NCBI GenBank assembly: GCA_903839535.1
Contig: CAIMCT010000568.1
Span: 1 to 32,659 of the forward strand
DNA from: an uncultured Desulfobacteraceae bacterium
GTDB taxonomy: Bacteria > Desulfobacterota > Desulfobacteria > Desulfobacterales > Desulfatirhabdiaceae
Reading direction: 5' to 3'
Length of the DNA stretch: 32,659 nt
Position numbers and translations under genes: made by a program. The notes below the pieces were generated by a model. It was given only the letters and a program-made list of their open reading frames with translations, made no database searches and had not been told where the DNA came from. Shown one piece after another: positions 14,196-31,473 of this stretch (position 1 is its first letter; every line of letters starts with the position of its first letter).

Positions 14196-15263
14196 ATGAA
14201 ACATCAGGGGGATTCTATCCGAACCATTCTGGTTACTGGCGGCGGCGGTTTTCTGGGAAAGGCAATCGTCCGGCTGCTCATAAACCGGGGGGACAGGGTC
14301 ATCAGTTTTTCAAGGGGCTATTATTCGGAGCTTGAGGCATTGGGGGTCAAACAGGTTCGGGGCGATATTTCAAACACGGTCGCCATCGAAAATGCCGTCA
14401 AAGGTGTTGATACCGTATATCATCTTGCGGCCAAAGCCGGTGTCTGGGGAGATTACAAGGACTATTACCGGATCAACACCGAAGGAACCCGCCATGTTAT
14501 CGCCGCCTGTAAATCCTGCGGGGTTTTCCGCCTGATTTACACCAGCTCGCCAAGCGTTGTCTTTGACGGCGAAGATATGGAAGGCGTGGACGAAACCGTT
14601 CCCTATCCCGGCAGTTATCACGCCGCTTATCCGGAAACCAAAGCTCTGGGTGAGCAGGCTGTCCGGCAGGCTGGTGGCAGATCGCAGATGGCGAGCGGCA
14701 GGTGGCAGGGGGCGGAGAAGAGGTGGCAGGGGGCATGGGATGGCCTGAAAACCATCATCTTAAGACCTCATCTGATCTGGGGCCCGGGAGACAGTCACCT
14801 GGTTCCGCGAATCCTTACGCGGGCAAAACGCCTCCGACGAATCGGGGATGGCAAAAACATGGTGGATGTGACTTACATTGATAATGCAGCCAAGGCTCAT
14901 ATTCTGGCCGAAGAGGCCCTGATAAGGCAGCCAGAACTTTCTGGGAATGTGTATTTCATCAGTCAGGGAAAGCCGGTTTCTCTCTGGAAAATGATTGATG
15001 ATATTCTTCATGCGGGCAGGCTCTCTCCGGTGAATCGCTCGATATCTCCGGAGGCGGCCTTTCGGATCGGGGCGGTCCTGGAATGGTTTTACAAGGCATT
15101 TGCATTAAAGGGAGAGCCGCAGATGACCCGGTTTGTCGCCAGAGAGCTTTCAACCTCCCACTGGTTTGATATCAGCGCTGCACAAAGGGATCTGGGGTAT
15201 GTTCCGGAAATTTCCACAGAAGAAGGACTGCGCCGGTTGGTGGAGTATCTGAAAGCTCGATAG
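14196..15263 (+). CDS. Extended SDR, OleD / 3-beta-hydroxysteroid dehydrogenase-like reductase
   Basis: An NAD(P)-dependent extended short-chain dehydrogenase. The nucleotide-binding loop is TGGGGFLG (~14-21) and the catalytic pair is Y145-xxx-K149 (YPETK). The motifs AAKAGVWG and SSPSVVFDG are those I associate with OleD, which reduces 2-alkyl-3-ketoacids in long-chain olefin synthesis; no oleA, oleB or oleC lies in this window, so the substrate is open. AAAGGAG lies 8 nt before the ATG. Residues 160-180 are an in-frame block encoded by nine 7-nt units (14673-14735) that relatives should lack, located just before the conserved LRPHLIWGPGD. 355 aa is slightly long for the family. Confidence 0.85.
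   Translation: MKHQGDSIRTILVTGGGGFLGKAIVRLLINRGDRVISFSRGYYSELEALGVKQVRGDISNTVAIENAVKGVDTVYHLAAKAGVWGDYKDYYRINTEGTRHVIAACKSCGVFRLIYTSSPSVVFDGEDMEGVDETVPYPGSYHAAYPETKALGEQAVRQAGGRSQMASGRWQGAEKRWQGAWDGLKTIILRPHLIWGPGDSHLVPRILTRAKRLRRIGDGKNMVDVTYIDNAAKAHILAEEALIRQPELSGNVYFISQGKPVSLWKMIDDILHAGRLSPVNRSISPEAAFRIGAVLEWFYKAFALKGEPQMTRFVARELSTSHWFDISAAQRDLGYVPEISTEEGLRRLVEYLKAR
14673..14735 (+). repeat. Nine degenerate 7-nt repeats inside the OleD-like gene
   Basis: Sixty-three bases divide into nine exact heptads with consensus G-G-(T/G)-G-G-C-A; GGTGGCA occurs at 14673, 14701 and 14722, and GGGGGCA/GGGGGCG at 14708 and 14729. The block is in frame and encodes 21 residues with a repeated RWQGA motif. 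Confidence 0.8.
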
Positions 15264-19762: not shown

Positions 19763-19778
19763 TCCGGGAATTGAACAG

Positions 19779-19816
19779 CCGTTGACCGTTCACCATTCAC
19801 GGTCAACGGTTTTATA
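19779..19816 (+). terminator. Inverted heptad repeat acting as terminator after the FNR-type gene
   Basis: CCGTTGACCGT (19779-19789) is the exact reverse complement of ACGGTCAACGG (19799-19809), with a 9-nt loop, followed by TTTTATAT. It is built of 7-nt units (CCGTTGA, CCGTTCA, CCATTCA, then CGGTCAA). It lies between convergent genes and shares GCCGTTGACCGTT with the recC/recB junction repeat. Confidence 0.7.
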
Positions 19817-21689: not shown

Positions 21690-21850
21690 CCCCTTTTTAA
21701 CGCATAGGATATGTATTGTCCCTCCCGATGGGGATTGCCCGACAAAGATGTCCGGGCTGACGTAATACGCCCCTTTGGGGCTAATGATCCAAATACATCG
21801 GGGTATTCTTTGTTGGCCGCCATATTTATATATTTTGGCATATCGGGCAC
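21690..21850. other. Unassigned segment between barrel remnant and recD
   Basis: This stretch joins the barrel remnant to the recD 3' end. It contains a perfect hairpin GCCCC-TTT-GGGGC at 21769-21781 and is open in more than one frame (for example a plus-strand frame with GYSLLAAIFIYFGISG), but no frame has a convincing start. It supplies the last ~6 codons and stop of recD. It may be an inserted element. Confidence 0.35.
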
Positions 21851-23883
21851 CTTAATAACTCTCCCAAGCCGGATGCCCGGTGGGTGCGACGCAGCACTGC
21901 CTGTTCCAGCAGATCCATGCGCGAGCTGACCAGTGTGAACCAATCGCGGGCCCGCGTAATACCGGTATAGACCAGTTCCCGTGTCAAAACCGGATTCATG
22001 GTGTCCGGCAGCACCATTGCAGTGTGTTCAAATTCAGATCCCTGGGATTTATGCACAGTCATGGCGTAGACTGTTTCTATATCACTCAGACGGGAAGGTA
22101 GCACTCTTTTCAATGCTCCGCCTGCCATGGGAAACACCACTCTTAAGACTTTTTGACCCGCACGGCGATCGTCTGTGACAGGCAATACGATACCGACATC
22201 GCCGTTCATCAGCTCCAGACTGTAATCGTTCCGGGTGACCAGTACCGGACGACCGGGATACCAGCCATCCGTGGCCCGGGTTAGCCCTGCGCGAAAAAGA
22301 ATTTTCGCTGTTTTTTCATTCAGACCTTCTACGCCCCATCTTCCCTTCCGGACTGCCGCTATCAACTGAAAGCGGCCAAAAGCTTTCAGCACCGCCCGCA
22401 GCCAGTCATTCTCCAATTCAAGTGTTGGCGGAGTTCCGGGATATTCCGGCGGACCCGCCTTCACACATTCCAGGTATGCACGATACCCGGCAGGCGTGTT
22501 GGATGAACCGGCACGGGTGAACGCACCTGGATTGCCATCCAGCACCAGACGGGCAAAGTTTTCATCGTCAAGGCTCTGTACGTTCAGTTGGGCGATATCT
22601 CCAAAGCCCTTACTCCAGATAGCGGCGACCTTTTCAGTATCTCCCGCGTTGACTGCTCTGGCCAGTTCTCCAATGCCGCTGTCTTTGCCAAAACGGTGAC
22701 TTCTGCGCAAGACGACAACATGTTGATCCAGTTCCGCACCAAGCCTGCATCCTGCCGACTCTACTTTTCCTGTAAAACTTTTCAAACAATATCCCGTGTT
22801 TTTTTCCAGCCATGCAAGGGTTGCCGGCAAATAATCAGCCTGTTCCGCATTGCTGCAAATATCGCCCAGCACAGACCCGGCTTCCACAGATGCCAGTTGA
22901 TCCTTATCGCCCAGCAGAACCAGCCTGGCCTTGGGCGGCAAAGCACCAAGAAGCGCCGCCATCATTTCCAGATCAATCATGGAGGCTTCATCCACAATCA
23001 GAAGATCGACATGCAGCGGGTTTTGAGAATTGTGAACAAAAAGCCGGGAATCCGGCCGACTTCCCAGCAACCGATGCAGGGTGGTAGCTTTAATGGGAAG
23101 TCTGTTCTGGATATCAGAAGGAAGGCGGCTTACCGCTATTCCGATGGATTCGGTCAACCTTGCTGCGGCTTTGCCAGTAGGCGCCGCCAGACATATCCGC
23201 AGGTTTTGCCCTTGTTCCAGCGCCAGCCCCTGAAGTAGTACCAACAACTGAACCACAGTGGTGGTTTTGCCGGTTCCAGGGCCGCCTGAAATTACGGTGA
23301 AAGCACTCGCCGCGGCAATAGCCGCCGCGATACTCTGCCAGTGTATCTCGGTTTTAGCCAGTTCTTCAGGACTGCGCAGCGGCTTAAACAAATCATCCAA
23401 CCGGTTGATTAGATTTTCAGGTAAAAACCCCACCCCGCCTAACGGTTTTGCTATTCTTTGTAAAATACCCTGCGCCACCTGCTGCGTGTATCGCCAGTAA
23501 CGGCGAAGGTATAAGCGGCCCGAAGATAAAACCAGCGGCGTATTTCCGGTACCTGCAGCAACCAGAGATGACGCACTCAGATTTTGCTCCCAAGTTTCCA
23601 GGGTCATTCCGGACAGCAGTTCCAACGGCTTGCTGGATTGTGTTTCCTCCCCTTCCGGCGGCAGAGACAGGGCCGCATCCGGATCTGCCAGCGCAGCCCG
23701 CAAATCAAGGCATATATGACCGCGCCCCAATTGATGACTGGCCAAAGCCGCAGCCAACAATACCCAGTCAGAGACGTTTGACTGTTGCTCATTCAGAAAG
23801 CTGACAAAGGCTAGGTCAAGAGCTCTGATCCATCCCCGTTCAACCCAATCACCAAGTACAAGTAACAGATTCTCAGACTGCAT
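21826..23883 (-). CDS. recD: Exodeoxyribonuclease V alpha subunit (RecD helicase)
   Basis: The 5'-3' helicase subunit of RecBCD. Walker A is ISGGPGTGKTTT (~199-210), Walker B LLIVDEASMIDLEMM (~295), and C-terminal helicase motifs are TVHKSQGSEF and ELVYTGITRARDW. The ATG at 23883 has AAGGAG upstream and overlaps the recB stop by ~11 nt, so translation is probably coupled; an in-frame ATG at 23925 would lie deeper inside recB. The normal C terminus near SGLGELL is followed by RCPICQNI, which comes from the unassigned segment, suggesting the native stop was displaced. Length of ~685 aa is somewhat above E. coli RecD (608 aa). Confidence 0.95.
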   Translation of the reverse strand: MQSENLLLVLGDWVERGWIRALDLAFVSFLNEQQSNVSDWVLLAAALASHQLGRGHICLDLRAALADPDAALSLPPEGEETQSSKPLELLSGMTLETWEQNLSASSLVAAGTGNTPLVLSSGRLYLRRYWRYTQQVAQGILQRIAKPLGGVGFLPENLINRLDDLFKPLRSPEELAKTEIHWQSIAAAIAAASAFTVISGGPGTGKTTTVVQLLVLLQGLALEQGQNLRICLAAPTGKAAARLTESIGIAVSRLPSDIQNRLPIKATTLHRLLGSRPDSRLFVHNSQNPLHVDLLIVDEASMIDLEMMAALLGALPPKARLVLLGDKDQLASVEAGSVLGDICSNAEQADYLPATLAWLEKNTGYCLKSFTGKVESAGCRLGAELDQHVVVLRRSHRFGKDSGIGELARAVNAGDTEKVAAIWSKGFGDIAQLNVQSLDDENFARLVLDGNPGAFTRAGSSNTPAGYRAYLECVKAGPPEYPGTPPTLELENDWLRAVLKAFGRFQLIAAVRKGRWGVEGLNEKTAKILFRAGLTRATDGWYPGRPVLVTRNDYSLELMNGDVGIVLPVTDDRRAGQKVLRVVFPMAGGALKRVLPSRLSDIETVYAMTVHKSQGSEFEHTAMVLPDTMNPVLTRELVYTGITRARDWFTLVSSRMDLLEQAVLRRTHRASGLGELLRCPICQNI

Positions 23884-26800
23884 GGTTTTTCTCCTTGCCG
23901 GCAAAAGCTTCATCCAGTGCTTCAATCAACGATTGCGGAGGTTTATCCAAATAGATACCCTGCCCCCTGTCATTTACCCCCCGCAGGAACAGATACACTG
24001 CTCCTCCCATATTTTGCTGGTAATCGTAGTCTGGCAATCTGGCTTTCAGCAGGCGGTGAAGCGCCAGGGTATAGAGTACATATTGAAGATCATAGCGATG
24101 TTCCAGCATGGCTTTTTTCATAGCTTTTTCCGAGTAAGCCGACTCGCTTTCTCCCAGGTGATTTGACTTATAGTCCAGAACATAATAGCGTTCCTGATAA
24201 CAGAAGACAAGGTCGATAAAGCCTTTGAGCATCCCGTTGACTACGTTCTTCCTAAGCCTGGGGCGGGGAGCCGCCGGCAGAATAGCGGCTATTACCGCAT
24301 CATCGAGTTCCAGGGTGTCAACCATATATGCGGCAAACAAGAATTCCAGCTCCGGCTGGTAGTCTTCCTTCGAGAGTTGCGCCAGAGTCATTTCGCCCAA
24401 TGCGTCCGGCAGCATTATCGGAGTCTGGAGCAGTTTCTGCAGCCAGTCTGTCAAAATCTCATCCCAGCCCTTCAAATCCCGACGCTCGCAAATATCCTTG
24501 ATCTTATTCAGGATGCGCTGACGATTGGGAGCCAGCGACGCAAAACCTTCACGTGCAGCCCACTCCAGCAGATCATGCAGAAAGGTTCCTGGCTCCGGCC
24601 CCCTGGGAAAGCCGTGAATGGAACGGGCGGAATCCTGGATTCCTGGTGCTGCGACAGGTTCGGTTTCCGTTTCCAACAACTGATCCTCTTCGGCGGAATA
24701 CGGCAAATGGGAAGAGTGATGGAGCGGAGGATCGGAAGATGGAAATAGCACAATTTCAGCTTTTGCCGAATCTTCATCTGACGACTCCACCATCTGTGCT
24801 AAGGCCAGCATTCCGGAATAGCTGGTAATCCACCAGTCACGTTGAATATTTCCGATAAACGTTAGCGCATGCATCAAATTAGCAGCTTCAGATCGCGGCT
24901 GATAGAGGGTATCACAGGGTTCAGGCAGATGTTCAATAGCAATAGGCTCGCAATTCCCTTTCATCTCTGCAAGCTTTTCGGCTAATGTAAGGGCGAGCGG
25001 CCGGTCGCCCTTACGTTCTGCCGGAATCGCTTCTCCTGCCGAAAGCAGGTAGCCCAGCCCGGACAGGTGCAAATTGCTGGCTGGTTTTCCCATAACGCCG
25101 ATGCCCAGCCAGCAGGCATATTGAGCACGGGTCAACGCTACATAGAGCATTCTAAGGTCTTCCGCCAGTCTTTCCCTATCCGCCGCCGCCAGGTCTTCTT
25201 CTCCCGGTTTCTGAATCAGGCGTATCTGACCCTTTTCATCGTGTATTTTCACCACCGGGGAATTCTTGGCCGTAACCTGACGGAAGCTGCAAATAAACGG
25301 CAAAAACACCAAGGGATATTCCAGTCCTTTGGATTTGTGGATCGTAATCACACGAATCAGTTCTTCATCGCTTTCCAGACGCAGTATCTGCTCCTCAACT
25401 CCGGGGCCGGGTTGCGCCACCTGTTCCGCCAGCCAGCGAATCAGAGCATGTTCCCCATTGAGCCCAGCCGCAGCAGTCTGAAGCATTTCCGCAATATGCA
25501 GCAGATTGGTCAGAGCCCTTTCGCCACCGGCCAAAGATAGCAGACGAGATGGAACACCGAATTCCTGAAGCAGCAACCGCAGCATGGGCAGTACGCCCTG
25601 ACGCCGCCAGATATTCTGATAGTTTCGAAAACGATCGACCTCGGCCTCCCAAGCCAGTTCGTCCTGAACCAACCGATCCAGCCTGCTAAAGGACAGAGCC
25701 AGAACATCCGTTGCCAACGCTGTTCTAAGAGCCTTTTCCCGCTCGGGTTCCGCGCAAGCGCTCAACAGATAAAGCAGGGATTTTGCCTCAGAACTTTCAA
25801 AGACGGAATCCTTGTCGGACAAATAGACGCTGCGCACCCGACGCTTGTTCAGAGCCTTACGAATCGCGTCGGCTTCGCTGCCAGTTCGAACAAGAATAGC
25901 AATATCCGCCGGTCGCAGGGCGGTAAACGCACCATCCGGTGCCAGAAATCCGGTCTGCGCCGGCTGTACTCCAGCCGAATTCAGCAAGAGAACAATTTCA
26001 CTGGCCGTGGATTCGGCTGTTTGGCCAATATAACCATCATCGCCATATTTGTTGAGAATTCCGGTTTGCTGAAGTTGCCAGAACGTCATGGCCTTAGCCG
26101 GTTTTCCATGAACTATGAGCTGATCCCTGCGTCCCTCTGCTGCTACTTCGACAAAGGGGATGCGATCCTTGAACAGAAACGCACCTTCGGAATGTCTGAC
26201 CCCTGCCCCGAACACCTGATTGACCGCTTTGACCAAACCTTCAGTGGAACGAAAATTCTTCCCCAGTGTGTAGGGCGCGCCGGAAGAGTCACCGCGCGCA
26301 TCCAGATATGTGTGAATATCCGCTCCGCGAAAAGCATAGATCGCCTGTTTGGGATCACCGATCATTAACAGCGCAGTATCCGGATGACAGGTGACAGATG
26401 ACGGATGACAGAAAAAGCTGTCGTCTGTCGTCTGTCCCCTGTCGTCTGCCGTCTGCCTTCTGTCCCCTGCCCTCTCTCCTATGTAGATTTTACTGAAGAT
26501 GTCGTACTGAACCGGGTCGGTATCCTGAAATTCGTCGATCAGCGCTGCTGGAAACTGTGCGCGAATGACCTGGGCCAGCCGTTCGTTTCCCTCTCTGTGC
26601 AGGGCATCATGCATACGGGTCAACAGATCGTCAAAACCCATTTTGGCGGTACGTTCCTTTTCCTTCCGGACACGCTGTCCGATGGCTTCCGCCGCATGAT
26701 TAAACAGCGCCGTATCAATTTCAAGCACGGCCAGCTCCTCATTGAGACGGTCAAGAGCCTTATAGGCCAGGTGTTCAGGTACGGATTTATTTTTGGATAG

Positions 26801-27697
26801 CCCCGCTTTAAGCCCTGTACCGGAAAATTTTTCCAGGGTCTGAGAATCGGGCAACGGACCTTTGTCTTTCACCCAGGAGCGTAGCGATTCCAACCATAAG
26901 GACAGAGAAGCGGTTCTGTATTTATTACCATTCAGGGTCTTATCAGCCTGAGCCTGCTGTACCCGTTCGATCGCAACCGCAAAATCGGAATCCCAGATTA
27001 GCCTGGCTTCTTCAATCGCCTGAAGGCGTTTTTCAATCAAGACAACAGGGTCATCCGGCGGACTCGGACGCTGCTTGAGCAAAAAACTGATCTCTTTCAG
27101 CAAAAATTTGATTTTTTTTAGCAATACCTGCGGTGTAGCGCACCAGATCATCAGCTCGGATAAAACCTCCTTGGGCTGGGGATAAAAATGGCTGCGCCAG
27201 TAGTCACATGCAGCTTCCTCCAATAGCTTCTGGTCGCGGGTCACCAGCTCCAGATCAAATAGACCACCACTGTCAAAGGCGTGCTGGCGGATCATTTTCT
27301 GACACCAGGCATGAATGGTATAGATCGCAGATTCATCCATCCATTGCGCCGCATGATCCAGTATCCGGGCGCAAGTCGGCCACTGGCCAGCATCGTAACT
27401 GCCTCTCAATGTCTGCAGGTACATATCACCCATGCCCTGTTCGCGAAAAAAAGCCGCAGCCTCGGTAAGCCGGCTGCGGATCCGATCCCGCAGTTCCTCT
27501 GTTGCAGCATTGGTAAAGGTCACCACAAGAATTTGCGGCGGGGTTAATTGCTTAAAAAAGGCATTTTCTCCCCCATGTCCCAGCACCAGCCGCAGATACA
27601 GGGCTGCAATTGTATAGGTCTTGCCGGTACCCGCGCTGGCCTCGATCAAACGAACGCCGTGCAAAGGAAAAGTCATAGTATCCAGTATATTTACCAA
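23873..27697 (-). CDS. recB: Exodeoxyribonuclease V beta subunit (RecB helicase-nuclease)
   Basis: The 3'-5' helicase and nuclease subunit that resects double-strand breaks. Visible: Walker A EASAGTGKTYT (~19-29), DEFQDTDP (~390), MIGDPKQAIYAFRGADI (~442), TIHKSKGLEYP (~783), YVALTRAQYA, and the C-terminal nuclease LKGFIDLVF and YYVLDYKSNHLG (~1155-1180). The start is TTG at 27697 with AAAAGGA upstream; an ATG at 27676 is the alternative. At 1274 aa it exceeds E. coli RecB (1180 aa). Residues ~407-439, just before the GDPKQA motif, are a 33-aa in-frame block made of inverted 7-nt repeats (26382-26480), and residues ~985-998 in the helicase-nuclease linker come from a second heptad-like run. 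Confidence 0.96.
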   Translation of the reverse strand: MVNILDTMTFPLHGVRLIEASAGTGKTYTIAALYLRLVLGHGGENAFFKQLTPPQILVVTFTNAATEELRDRIRSRLTEAAAFFREQGMGDMYLQTLRGSYDAGQWPTCARILDHAAQWMDESAIYTIHAWCQKMIRQHAFDSGGLFDLELVTRDQKLLEEAACDYWRSHFYPQPKEVLSELMIWCATPQVLLKKIKFLLKEISFLLKQRPSPPDDPVVLIEKRLQAIEEARLIWDSDFAVAIERVQQAQADKTLNGNKYRTASLSLWLESLRSWVKDKGPLPDSQTLEKFSGTGLKAGLSKNKSVPEHLAYKALDRLNEELAVLEIDTALFNHAAEAIGQRVRKEKERTAKMGFDDLLTRMHDALHREGNERLAQVIRAQFPAALIDEFQDTDPVQYDIFSKIYIGERAGDRRQTADDRGQTTDDSFFCHPSSVTCHPDTALLMIGDPKQAIYAFRGADIHTYLDARGDSSGAPYTLGKNFRSTEGLVKAVNQVFGAGVRHSEGAFLFKDRIPFVEVAAEGRRDQLIVHGKPAKAMTFWQLQQTGILNKYGDDGYIGQTAESTASEIVLLLNSAGVQPAQTGFLAPDGAFTALRPADIAILVRTGSEADAIRKALNKRRVRSVYLSDKDSVFESSEAKSLLYLLSACAEPEREKALRTALATDVLALSFSRLDRLVQDELAWEAEVDRFRNYQNIWRRQGVLPMLRLLLQEFGVPSRLLSLAGGERALTNLLHIAEMLQTAAAGLNGEHALIRWLAEQVAQPGPGVEEQILRLESDEELIRVITIHKSKGLEYPLVFLPFICSFRQVTAKNSPVVKIHDEKGQIRLIQKPGEEDLAAADRERLAEDLRMLYVALTRAQYACWLGIGVMGKPASNLHLSGLGYLLSAGEAIPAERKGDRPLALTLAEKLAEMKGNCEPIAIEHLPEPCDTLYQPRSEAANLMHALTFIGNIQRDWWITSYSGMLALAQMVESSDEDSAKAEIVLFPSSDPPLHHSSHLPYSAEEDQLLETETEPVAAPGIQDSARSIHGFPRGPEPGTFLHDLLEWAAREGFASLAPNRQRILNKIKDICERRDLKGWDEILTDWLQKLLQTPIMLPDALGEMTLAQLSKEDYQPELEFLFAAYMVDTLELDDAVIAAILPAAPRPRLRKNVVNGMLKGFIDLVFCYQERYYVLDYKSNHLGESESAYSEKAMKKAMLEHRYDLQYVLYTLALHRLLKARLPDYDYQQNMGGAVYLFLRGVNDRGQGIYLDKPPQSLIEALDEAFAGKEKNHAV
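24703..24744 (-). repeat. Possible heptad run in the recB linker
   Basis: Six 7-nt units can be phased here, the clearest being GATGGAA, ATCGGAA and TGATGGA on the plus strand. It encodes a Pro/Ser/His-rich linker. The similarity between units is weak. Confidence 0.35.
26382..26480 (-). repeat. Inverted heptad-repeat insertion within recB
   Basis: Four heptads of type GGATGAC (26382-26409) are followed by an 8-nt hinge (AGAAAAAG) and nine heptads of type CTGTCGT (26418-26480), all in exact phase. The two sets are near reverse complements (ATGACAG versus CTGTCGT), so the transcript can fold. The block is 99 bp, in frame, and encodes a DRRQTADDRGQTTDD-type low-complexity peptide. Confidence 0.85.
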
Positions 27698-27727
27698 TAT
27701 GTTGTTCCTTTTGATGATGGTTGAAAA

Positions 27728-27788
27728 GCCGTTGACCGTTTACCTTTCACAGTCAACAGTCAATGGCCAACAGTCAACGGTCAACGGC
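27728..27788 (-). repeat. Inverted heptad repeat at the recC/recB junction
   Basis: GCCGTTGACCGTT (27728-27740) is the exact reverse complement of AACGGTCAACGGC (27776-27788). The whole span divides into 7-nt units (CCGTTGA, CCGTTTA, CCTTTCA, then CAGTCAA, CAGTCAA, TGGCCAA, CAGTCAA, CGGTCAA). The recC stop codon lies inside one arm, and CTTTTC follows the hairpin in the recB direction, so it could attenuate recB. Confidence 0.85.
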
Positions 27789-30700
27789 TTGCTTGTAGCA
27801 AAGGCGCATAGAGGGACGTTGCCAAACAATCAAATTGATTTCCGTCAGTCTGCCAGATATCGCTAAAATCAGGATAGATTCGTGCAAGATAGAGACTATA
27901 TCCCAACTCTCCTGAAGTATTGAAGCCATTCCCCTGATAAGCTATGCGGGCGGCATCCACAGCTTTCTGTCGTTTCATTTCGGGCGTGTCCTTTGGATTA
28001 TCGGACTGCATCGCCGCCAGATATGCCAGCGCTGTCTTGGCTGTCACAGGCAGTGGATACTGAAGTCCTGACCACCAGCGATTAATGATTTCAGTCAGCC
28101 ATTTTTCGGCGCAATCCTGATCCAACTGGCACAGCTCAGCAAAACCGTCCGGTGCCACCAGATAACTGGTCAGGGGAATTCCTTGCGCACAACCGGCAAG
28201 ATGCTTCACCCAGGCACTCACCAAACTGGTCAATCGTGAGACTTCGCCCTTTGTATCCATAATATTGTCGCAATAAAACTCCCAGCGAGCATATCGTTCT
28301 GATGACGACGGGCGACATTTATCTTTTTTTGAGGCTGGGATATCTTTTGGCGGTTGCCCTGAATCTGCTCTATGTAACCCGTCCAGCCAGTCTTCCAGAT
28401 ACAGGACCGATAACGCAGAGTTGTTTTCAACCGTCTGTTGATTCTGAACCTGCAAGCGGATTTCCATCGCCGCTGCCGCATCCGGCCACTGATTGACCAG
28501 GTTATGATGATATTGAATCATTCGCAGCACTGGCTCAGCCAGTGCTGCGGCGGCCAGCTCACCAAAACCATTTAGCGGCAGACTGCCGGTGCGGCGAAGT
28601 CGTTCCACCTCTTCATGAACGGCCTCCCGGCATTTACCCGTTTCAGCGGCCAGCCCCGCGGCAAGCAATTGAGCCCCAAAGTTAAAAGGTGCCAATCGAT
28701 CCAGGGCAAATGGTTCCTGGTCATCCGCCGTGACATCTATTTGATCGAAATAGACTTTTAGGCGCCTATTAAAAAAAACCTGCACCGGATTCTTCATAAA
28801 TCGAATCAAGTCGTTCAACTGCAAGGCACCTTCGATTTGGTACGCCAAAATATCTCTGGGCAGCGGGATATCAGCGGCCAGGACTGTCCGCAGATTCAGA
28901 ATTTCTCGCCATTCATGGGCGTAGGTGAACAGTCTCATGTCATGACTGGACATAAAGTATGCTTTACTGAAGGGCTGGAGCGGGTACAGGCAGGTAAGAT
29001 GGTCCAGAAGCTCCGTCCCCAACTCTTCGGCTACCATCAACTGGCAGGATGCCGGCTCTACACTATCTCTTGGCCGCCATCCTGCCGCCAGATAGTCTCG
29101 AAGCTGGCCAACCAGCACCGAAGGCATAAACTCGCTATTATCCCGGACACTACGACCGATGTAGGAGATATAGAGCTTTTCCCGCGCCGATAACAGGGCT
29201 TCGAGAAACAGATAGCGGTCATCTTCCCGGCGGGAACGATCTCCTGGTCGATAGGCACCAGAAACTGCCATCAGATCGAAATCCAGCGGTGAGTGGCTTC
29301 GCGGGTACTGCCCATCGTTCATGCCAAGCAGGCAAACCACTTTAAACGGAATAGCCCGCATTGGCATCAGAGTGCAGAAATTGACCATTCCGGCAAGGAA
29401 TCGCTGAGACATGCCGGATTCCTGCATTGCTCCCAAAAATGCTTCACGCACTACCGTCAAGGGCAACGCTTCTTCCAGACCAACATCCTTGCAGGCGCTC
29501 TGCCACTTTTCCAGCACCGATCCCACCCGGCCCAGAGTCAACCGGTCAGAACTGTCAATCGGCAGAAAGAAATCTTTCGAAATATCCCGGATACGACTGA
29601 ACCAATTTTCAACGGTAGCCGGCTGAGCAAGCTCCCGGCAGTACTTCTCAAGTTTTTCCAGCATGGCAGCCAGTGGGCCGACCAGCGCGGCTTCCAAACC
29701 ACCGACTTCGTTGTATGGTTCAATCCCATGCCAAGGTTCGCCCGAACCCGCCGCATACCCAAGAATCATGCGACGCAGACCAAACAACCAGGTATTTTGT
29801 TCCAGACCGGCAGGAAGCCCAAACGATATCCGCTGCTCTGCGCTCAGTCCCCAGCGAATACCGGAGCCTTCAATCCACTGTCGCAGTCTGGGCAGATCCG
29901 CCTCCACCAGGCCAAAACGCGCACGGAGGGCTGGAACATCCAGCAGCTCCATCACATCACTTACCGCCATGCGCGAATCCGGCAAGTGAAGGAGTTTATC
30001 CAGAGCCTGCAGAATGGGAACGCCGGCGCGCTCCGGGCTGTCTGCAATCGTAAACGGAATATACCGCGCATCATGTAGCCGGATGTTGCCAAAGACGGCT
30101 TCAATGTGGGGTGCGTAGATATCAATGTCCGGGGTCATGACAATGATATCTCGTGGCCTTAGATCCGGAATTTCAATAAAGAATGACAGCAATTGATCTT
30201 GAAGGATTTCCACTTCGCGCTGACGGCTATGGGCCAGATGAAAGCGGATCGACCCATCGCCTGGATCAATGCACTGCCTGTCTTCCAAAGAGGCGGGTAA
30301 AGGCTGTAAGTCCAGAATCGCCTGCTGAACCTGTTGCAGAAGACCAGCCCTGGAGCCATCCGGAACAATATCACGAAAGAGATCAATTTCGGCAAAGTTT
30401 TCCCGGTATGCCTCCGGCCGGTCATAGCTGCAAAGTAGTCCCATATAGTCGCGTCCCTGCTTGCCCCATGCAGCCAGAAGCGGATTGGCGTGCTGGTGCA
30501 AAAGATCAGGATTCATATCTTCTGGTGTATGCGTCTTTCGCGGATGTCTGGCGCGCTCAATTCGCAGCAAGTCCCTATCTTCGATAATATCCGCCCAATA
30601 ATGTCGGCAGGGGTTGTGAACGAATACCATCACTTGGCTAAGGTGGGACACAGCATGCAGCGCCTCCAGCGCCTGTTTGGGCAGGGAGCAGATGCCAAAG

Positions 30701-31410
30701 ACAATCACGCGGCGCGGCAGGTCGGTAGGCCTGTTTGTCAGGCTTTCAGCGGCTGTCAAGAACTGGCGATGCAGATTGGAGCGGCTGTTTTCGCGTTGAT
30801 TCTGGGGAATGCTCTGCTGAATTCTTCGCCAAAGTTCGGCCTGCCAGAGCAGCTTTTCCGGCATTTCAGCCGGCTCGCCCCTGGCGTTTAGAATCCGGTC
30901 AAGGCCGCTCGTCCAGTCTTCCAGCCAGTCGGCCCGGTAAACCTGATACTGATCAAAAAGATCCGCAAGATGACAGGCCAACTGGTATCGCTTGCGCAGA
31001 TCGTGATCGTCGGACAGATATTGTGCAAGCGGCGCGAAACAATTCTCTTTTAGCAGGGACGGCAACAACTGCAGGAGACACCAGGTCAGGCGGTCTTTGT
31101 CATAAGGCGATTCCCTGGGGATTGCCTCTGTACCCAGGACCGCACGGTATGCGCTCCATATAAAGCGCGCCGGCAGCTCAATATCCACCGCAGCACTAAT
31201 GCCGCACCCGTCGTTTTCCGCAAGAGCCAGCTTTAGCCACTGGGCCATGCCATTGCTCTGGACAAGAAACAACTCGTTTTCCAGCGGCTTCAGCGGCCTG
31301 CGCTGGATCCACTGCACCACCACCTGCCGCAGGTCTTCGATATGATTGGCATGAATCATCGAAAGGCCTGGGGTTAAGACATTATTACTATTCTCTGCTC
31401 GAATGTCCAA
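27781..31410 (-). CDS. recC: Exodeoxyribonuclease V gamma subunit (RecC)
   Basis: The RecBCD subunit that holds RecB and RecD and recognises Chi. Family landmarks: FLVQSNGMAQWLKLALA near the N terminus, DIIVMTPDIDIYAPHIEAVFG, VCLLGMNDGQYPRSHSPLDF and DRSRREDDRYLFLEALL. About 1209 aa versus 1122 in E. coli. The start is unclear: TTG at 31410 has AGGAG at a 6-nt spacing; ATG at 31416 would abut AGGAG; ATG at 31359 is closest to the conserved N terminus but lacks a good site. The last codons and TGA stop (27783-27781) lie in the heptad repeat. First gene of recC-recB-recD. Confidence 0.93.
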   Translation of the reverse strand: MDIRAENSNNVLTPGLSMIHANHIEDLRQVVVQWIQRRPLKPLENELFLVQSNGMAQWLKLALAENDGCGISAAVDIELPARFIWSAYRAVLGTEAIPRESPYDKDRLTWCLLQLLPSLLKENCFAPLAQYLSDDHDLRKRYQLACHLADLFDQYQVYRADWLEDWTSGLDRILNARGEPAEMPEKLLWQAELWRRIQQSIPQNQRENSRSNLHRQFLTAAESLTNRPTDLPRRVIVFGICSLPKQALEALHAVSHLSQVMVFVHNPCRHYWADIIEDRDLLRIERARHPRKTHTPEDMNPDLLHQHANPLLAAWGKQGRDYMGLLCSYDRPEAYRENFAEIDLFRDIVPDGSRAGLLQQVQQAILDLQPLPASLEDRQCIDPGDGSIRFHLAHSRQREVEILQDQLLSFFIEIPDLRPRDIIVMTPDIDIYAPHIEAVFGNIRLHDARYIPFTIADSPERAGVPILQALDKLLHLPDSRMAVSDVMELLDVPALRARFGLVEADLPRLRQWIEGSGIRWGLSAEQRISFGLPAGLEQNTWLFGLRRMILGYAAGSGEPWHGIEPYNEVGGLEAALVGPLAAMLEKLEKYCRELAQPATVENWFSRIRDISKDFFLPIDSSDRLTLGRVGSVLEKWQSACKDVGLEEALPLTVVREAFLGAMQESGMSQRFLAGMVNFCTLMPMRAIPFKVVCLLGMNDGQYPRSHSPLDFDLMAVSGAYRPGDRSRREDDRYLFLEALLSAREKLYISYIGRSVRDNSEFMPSVLVGQLRDYLAAGWRPRDSVEPASCQLMVAEELGTELLDHLTCLYPLQPFSKAYFMSSHDMRLFTYAHEWREILNLRTVLAADIPLPRDILAYQIEGALQLNDLIRFMKNPVQVFFNRRLKVYFDQIDVTADDQEPFALDRLAPFNFGAQLLAAGLAAETGKCREAVHEEVERLRRTGSLPLNGFGELAAAALAEPVLRMIQYHHNLVNQWPDAAAAMEIRLQVQNQQTVENNSALSVLYLEDWLDGLHRADSGQPPKDIPASKKDKCRPSSSERYARWEFYCDNIMDTKGEVSRLTSLVSAWVKHLAGCAQGIPLTSYLVAPDGFAELCQLDQDCAEKWLTEIINRWWSGLQYPLPVTAKTALAYLAAMQSDNPKDTPEMKRQKAVDAARIAYQGNGFNTSGELGYSLYLARIYPDFSDIWQTDGNQFDCLATSLYAPLLQASR

Positions 31411-31473
31411 GGGCATCTCCTGTGAAAACCGACCACATGTTTCTTAGGTTCTTTGATACAGCTAAATCATGAA

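Follow-up and report, generated by a model that had tools for sequence, protein, structure and literature searches.

A palindromic heptad-repeat insert in frame within recB of a Desulfobacteraceae genome, probably one copy of a scattered heptad-hairpin family

Introduction

Rickettsia palindromic elements (RPEs) are described as palindromes of about 100–150 bp that occupy spacers and also lie in frame within conserved genes; for some classes every Rickettsia orthologue is reported to carry an insert at one shared site, with sequences that differ. The places occupied are solvent-exposed, and the classes RPE-4, RPE-6 and RPE-7 are rich in ATGAC (PMC2229807, PMC3767692). The cyanobacterial STRR sequences are usually degenerate, hairpin-capable 7-bp repeats; P6b of the Nostoc trnL intron is such a heptad hairpin, and Nostoc genotypes differ in heptad copy number and units (PMC2670836, PMC3488679). 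Among other bacteria, Geobacter metallireducens has 49 elements that each consist of four heptads in tandem and lie both within genes and between them; a further class of 16 sites, of which 15 contain five tandem heptads, is drawn as looping between strands (PMC2700814). More generally, heptameric repeats are said to be over-represented in many bacterial genomes and little studied (PMC4692102).

Here we describe a 99-bp heptad hairpin inside recB, found in a window of 32,659 nucleotides (the whole stretch of DNA analysed) from an uncultured Desulfobacteraceae bacterium. Like the RPEs, it is an in-frame palindrome in a conserved gene that occurs at the same site across orthologues with diverged sequence, and its length is close to that of the RPEs within conserved genes; the ATGAC of RPE-4, RPE-6 and RPE-7 is also contained in its GGATGAC unit. 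However, the RPE accounts cited here describe no 7-nt period, and Rickettsia belongs to another lineage. With the STRR and P6b sequences it shares the degenerate 7-bp hairpin of varying units, whereas those are described from a promoter region, a spacer and an intron and the present one is an in-frame part of a gene for a core protein in a Desulfobacteria-like genome. The looping class of G. metallireducens may also have an inverted layout, but the units there are GGACCGG and MTYCTGA and the elements are read by the authors as regulatory (PMC2700814). The TAACTGA repeats of Beggiatoaceae are likewise heptads with one strand stop-free in all frames, 11 frames being reported with such reverse repeats, but they comprise 169 direct sets and a single inverted one and lie mostly upstream of start codons (PMC4679880). 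The GGGNATC repeats of Xanthomonas and Nostoc are dispersed heptads too, but are described as G-rich direct arrays under-represented in coding regions (PMC4692102). Finally, the reading-frame tandem repeats of Borgs change fast and create disordered protein stretches, but are direct and have in-gene unit lengths that are multiples of three (PMC9879509).

Going by these published descriptions, the recB insert would be best explained, by analogy, as working like Rickettsia palindromic elements and as being built like cyanobacterial heptad hairpins. The sources cited provide separate precedents for an excess of heptads, for hairpins made of heptads and for palindromes within coding genes; heptads and in-gene palindromes combined, in Desulfobacteria, were not found in the open-licence literature covered. 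The case brings together two long-standing puzzles, namely that 7-base repeats abound in bacteria for reasons little explained and that palindromes lie within Rickettsia genes.

Layout of the heptad hairpin in recB

The host gene was identified by its Pfam domains (UvrD helicase and PD-(D/E)XK nuclease) and by its match to E. coli RecB (1w36_B, the best solved match). The features that matter here, in window coordinates, are:

21826..23925, minus strand: recD, downstream neighbour of recB
23873..27697, minus strand: recB, 1274 aa as listed, with an uncertain TTG start (from Pfam and the E. coli match)
26324..26359, minus strand: GDPKQAIYAFRG motif, C-terminal of the insert (from the motif)
26382..26480, sense on the minus strand: heptad hairpin insert in recB, 99 bp or 33 codons, coding for about GERAGDRRQTADDRGQTTDDSFFCHPSSVTCHP
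26382..26409, plus strand: arm 1, four 7-nt units of type GGATGAC (read from the sequence)
26410..26417, plus strand: hinge AGAAAAAG, 8 nt (CTTTTTCT on the sense strand)
26418..26480, plus strand: arm 2, nine 7-nt units of type CTGTCGT (read from the sequence)
26513..26536, minus strand: helicase motif DEFQDTDP, N-terminal of the insert (from the motif)
27781..31416, minus strand: recC, upstream neighbour of recB

The two arms and the hinge make up the full length (4 × 7 + 8 + 9 × 7 = 99). On the plus strand, the units of arm 1 are GGATGAC, AGGTGAC, AGATGAC and GGATGAC; those of arm 2 are CTGTCGT, CTGTCGT, CTGTCCC, CTGTCGT and CTGCCGT, followed by CTGCCTT, CTGTCCC, CTGCCCT and CTCTCCT, and its inner four or so pair with arm 1. 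The original prediction of exact 7-nt units holds for the spacing but not for the units themselves, since only two of the four equal GGATGAC and three of the nine equal CTGTCGT exactly. Lag-7 identity is 63/91 (positions 26383–26480, 98 of the 99 bases), whereas 20,000 dinucleotide shuffles gave a mean of 23.5 and a maximum of 42, so the 7-nt phasing is clearly better than in shuffled sequence; lags 4–6 and 8–13 gave 13–33 matches, and lag 14 gave 52/84. The inverted-repeat score is 16.5, compared with a maximum of 11.5 in 2,000 shuffles. On the plus strand, which is antisense to recB, the hairpin has 30 pairs including G.T and one 1×1 mismatch, with a DNA fold of −23.3 kcal/mol (z −7.48, 0/200 shuffles as good); the mRNA-strand fold is less striking (z −3.13, 1/200 shuffles as good). 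We searched the window with Rfam and found no family at the gathering score. Hinges made of T or A runs are present in several further elements besides that of recB.

The reading frame of recB is open across the insert, which makes an intron or a frameshift at this place unneeded. As had been proposed from the sequence, the insert codes for a charged low-complexity loop. In a ColabFold model of residues 1–868 (mean pLDDT 84, 23 sequences), the longest stretch with pLDDT below 50 covers residues 410–434, a coil between helix 395–405 and strand 442–447; this low confidence suggests that the loop is disordered.

Two other repeats were noted nearby. Between recC and recB, at 27726–27793, lies a second heptad hairpin, which belongs to a different family (GTTGACC / GGTCAAC plus AACAGTC units), and a 21-bp tandem duplication within recB at 27078–27124 (KFLLKEISFLLK) is three heptads long without being heptadic.

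Distribution of the insert among RecB proteins

Comparison with other RecB proteins confirms the prediction that some 30 residues have been inserted in frame ahead of GDPKQA. The phmmer alignment with E. coli RecB is interrupted at 405|438 in the window protein versus 401|404 in E. coli, so that 32 residues stand where E. coli RecB has 2. The spacing between DEFQDTD and GDPKQAI was further determined for 110 loci (80 out of 581 confirmed ones and 30 from a second search), of which 109, the window itself included, matched the motif pair and one (L099) failed. The distance is 66 residues in the window and 33–43 in 104 of the 108 other loci; many of the 80 loci belong to Pseudomonas, and the 104 do not stand for 104 independent lineages. 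The remaining four loci are L119, with 49 residues, from a genome of another lineage (G013), and L064, L112 and L116, with 60, 61 and 75 residues, respectively, which carry an insert at the same place as the window. The relatives, therefore, do not all have a non-repetitive loop of the same length here. Three same-genus genomes (G006, G004 and G003) encode RecB without the insert. Assembly error or contamination was rejected as the source because three further genomes or MAGs also carry an insert here.

The near named relatives of the window protein are the Desulfobacteraceae MAG locus L064 (75% identity over residues 3–633) and Desulfobulbus alkaliphilus (56%), from which the host would be an uncultured bacterium of Desulfobacteria-like affinity. 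The L064 insert is likewise an inverted heptad array but has other units, GGAGGACGGATGACGG...GTCCTCCGTCCTCC, and the lag-7 identity over the insert and near flanks is 0.58 in the window and 0.48 in L064; the inserts of L112 and L116 are degenerate, with traces of the period (0.31 and 0.34). The units thus differ between species. In a FastTree phylogeny of 15 RecB proteins, computed with the insert columns removed, the four carriers form one clade (0.976), next to which the insert-free G006 branches, and two nodes inside the carrier clade have values of 0.599 and 0.891. On this sequence evidence, the insert would most simply predate the split of the carrier species and have been kept in frame; separate insertions at one favoured spot of recB are a possible alternative. 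Nei–Gojobori estimates to the window outside the insert are dN 0.131 and dS 0.677 for G001, dN 0.125 and dS 0.567 for G002 (a fragment), and dN 0.144 and dS 0.730 for L064. The resulting dN/dS of 0.19–0.22 indicates that RecB is under purifying selection.

Heptad hairpins in other open reading frames

Such an insert is not a peculiarity of recB in this genome: the three relatives carry one at the same place, and hairpins of the same family occur in at least five further open frames here. They were found between the membrane and ATPase domains of an ABC transporter, before the receiver domain of a hybrid histidine kinase, between the carrier domain and ketosynthase of a PKS, inside the adenylation domain of an NRPS, and in a long frame of contig 109. 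A further family member lies at the start of a frame that we take to encode an amidohydrolase.

Since seven is not a multiple of three, the frames of a heptad repeat are either all open or all closed, and an array without stops in one frame has none in the other two. This is a simple rule for which repeats can enter genes, and the mark it predicts is a strand bias in coding copies, with few stop triplets in sense while the antisense strand retains them. Such a sense-strand shortage was observed in recB (0 sense and 4 antisense) and in the sum of seven coding elements, but not in each of them. Over all frames the seven elements, with bounds set by hand, have 17 stop triplets in sense versus 37 in antisense (p 0.009), a deficit that is partly forced, as a kept frame cannot hold an in-frame stop and the open frame defines the coding copies. 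The NRPS element goes against the trend (sense 5 versus antisense 3, or three of each when the bounds are set differently). In recB, T precedes G(A/G)C at 0/12 places of the sense arm (off-phase ones included) and at 4/4 of the other arm (p 0.0005). Among transition mismatches between the arms of the seven coding copies, C.A on the sense strand outnumbers G.T (45 vs 21, p 0.004), whereas eight other copies, whose coding state is unchecked, have 27 versus 23 (p 0.67). Loss of TGA from the sense strand would be expected to give the summed bias seen here; in the kinase copy alone the bias is reversed (C.A 2 vs G.T 6).

The linker of the ABC transporter was compared across its 16 best-matching loci, G000 included, from 38 genomes searched. 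In 13 of the 16 it has 24–26 residues and no clear heptads (lag-7 0.17–0.37). The G006 linker, with 25 residues, has heptads of one arm (lag-7 0.50), and two-armed linkers are present in G001 (45 residues, lag-7 0.46) and G000 (58 residues, lag-7 0.50). A second gene, with no Pfam family at 1e-5, has at one spot period-7 stretches whose units differ between G000 and G001; over a longer stretch its lag-7 identity is only 0.33–0.34 in G000, G001 and G002.

Heptad arrays in the genome and its relatives

We counted period-7 arrays in 345,233 N-free bases of this genome (40 contigs picked by number) and in 20 second-order Markov simulations. The genome sample has 19 arrays, compared with a simulated mean of 2.2 and maximum of 6. 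Periods 4, 5, 8, 10, 11 and 13 gave 3–7 arrays each in the same sample, and periods 6, 9 and 12 gave 19, 12 and 20; the tandem 7-bp excess, a feature of STRR sequences, is thus seen only when periods divisible by three are left out of the comparison. When the window and partly chosen stretches are added to the sample, the density is 55.9 per Mb for period 7, 9.3–15.5 for periods 5, 8, 10, 11 and 13, and 57.5 for period 12. Among samples of relatives, period 7 reached 17.8 per Mb in G001 (other such periods 3.6–14.3), 35.7 in G006 (5.9–17.8) and 99.7 in G021 (18.7–24.9), and the G017 sample has no period-7 excess (30.0 per Mb, period 8 also 30.0).

Inverted arms, scored as present at a score of at least 10, accompany 15 of the 36 period-7 arrays here (6/18 in contigs picked by number), as opposed to 32 of 1,440 random places of equal length. 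In relatives they are few (G001 0/5, G006 1/6, G021 1/16 and G017 0/6), so hairpins are a habit of this genome and not of every heptad-rich genome.

The GACRGAN family and arm order

The pattern GACRGANGACRGANGAC has 12 exact hits in this genome versus 1 for its reversed control, and 37 versus 9 with up to three mismatches. It was found in 15 of 57 genomes, and the unit is also present in 51 stretches of viral contigs. It should be noted that the pattern is not specific everywhere, since in 9 of the 57 genomes (G007, G009, G010, G015, G016, G023, G028, G032 and G051) control hits outnumber true ones; the reversed control is itself a heptad.

At sites found two-armed by strict patterns the order of the arms is constant, 32/32 over three families with none opposite, although most pattern sites are one-armed, some viral contigs are near copies, and the 32 are not 32 independent events. 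The unit always lies on the 5' side of its complement: GACRGAN at 6 sites in this genome, 1 in G002 and 16 in viral contigs, and GTTGACC and AATTATG at 8 sites and 1 site, respectively, in this genome; no two-armed site was found by these patterns in the other sampled stretches of G001, G006, G021 and G017. Such constancy within a family speaks for descent or a directed process and against chance pairing of arrays. Inverted heptads of other units but the same period do occur at other loci, as predicted; the period in common and the constant order of the arms hint at the common generating mechanism proposed for them but do not demonstrate it.

Origin of the recB insert

We favour, with a probability of roughly 0.6, the reading of the 99 bp as a palindromic repeat that codes for protein, is a passenger and represents one copy of a scattered family of heptad hairpins. 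In this scenario, one copy of the family, whose members lie in spacers and genes across this genome, entered recB once, in the ancestor of the carrier clade. The insert sits at a tight turn leading from DEFQDTDP to the strand before GDPKQA, where a floppy loop may do little harm; it has been kept in frame because RecB is under purifying selection, and its units probably turn over by slippage or by copying between arms, giving each species its own version. The two arms of one element resemble each other barely more than they resemble those of other elements (0.69 vs 0.67, and the choice of hairpins itself favours own arms), which lends little support to copying between arms. We infer that the insert is a passenger and not a working part of RecB. 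Against the entry of a ready-made element, empty sites were seen only in other species and none was found within one species, and no transposase tied to the heptad family was found, the genome having one Y1 transposase gene. The REP/RAYT idea was dropped, as the 3,324-base locus of this sole PF01797 gene contains no period-7 array.

Growth in place, with replication slippage producing a 7-nt array in the recB loop, fold-back copying by template switch adding the inverted arm and nothing having moved, seems to us unlikely but is a serious rival because of the ABC transporter linkers. Against the passenger-copy reading, these can be read as a series grown in place, from none to one arm (G006), a short hairpin (G001) and a longer one (G000). 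The different units at one site across species, in recB and, weakly heptadic, in the second gene, fit local growth as well, as does the excess of heptads relative to other periods not divisible by three. However, local birth would be expected to give arbitrary units in both arm orders, whereas the order is constant and the GACRGAN unit recurs at unrelated loci well above its control, viral contigs included. The recB and ABC transporter site histories (none, one arm, two arms) make the birth and turnover of such repeats testable in close strains. A doubtful further option is a heptad-writing process, in which an enzyme measuring seven bases would lay down or renew hairpins of fixed order at the same sites, with units free to differ between species, in spacers and, where the sense strand is stop-free, in genes such as recB.

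It is improbable that the hairpin acts as nucleic acid in the recBCD operon (as a terminator, attenuator, protein-binding site or Chi-like signal) with the peptide merely tolerated. The strong plus-strand fold and the second hairpin between recC and recB agree with such a role, but the best fold is the antisense one and the mRNA strand folds more weakly, arm mismatches in coding copies are more often sense-strand C.A than G.T, the arrays have decayed in two of the three other carriers, and Rfam has no match at gathering score in the window. Least credible, in our judgement, is a peptide loop selected as part of RecB, for example as a new contact surface: it has stayed in frame in four species at a dS of 0.57–0.73 to the window, but its sequence and length differ in each carrier (60, 61, 66 and 75 residues between the motifs), the model has its lowest RecB confidence there, and similar peptides occur in unrelated proteins.

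Additional heptad elements

Several other elements were recorded in the course of this analysis. A direct heptad array of GGCAGGT type (window 14655–14740) runs in frame through a gene of the 3-beta-HSD/epimerase family, and a short palindromic GTTGACC element directly follows an open reading frame (window 19775–19814). One PKS gene of this genome contains, within a single open frame, two heptad elements that belong to different families (L214:11581–11628 and L214:12213–12253). Among the arrays of five sampled genomes, 38 of 69 consensus heptads contain TGA or TCA, compared with 17.2 expected from permuted units, the families not being independent. Finally, one GACRGAN hairpin with similar GC-rich flanks is common to eight viral contigs (L323, L330, L331, L334, L347, L348, L349 and L354) and is perhaps a fixed site of one virus group.
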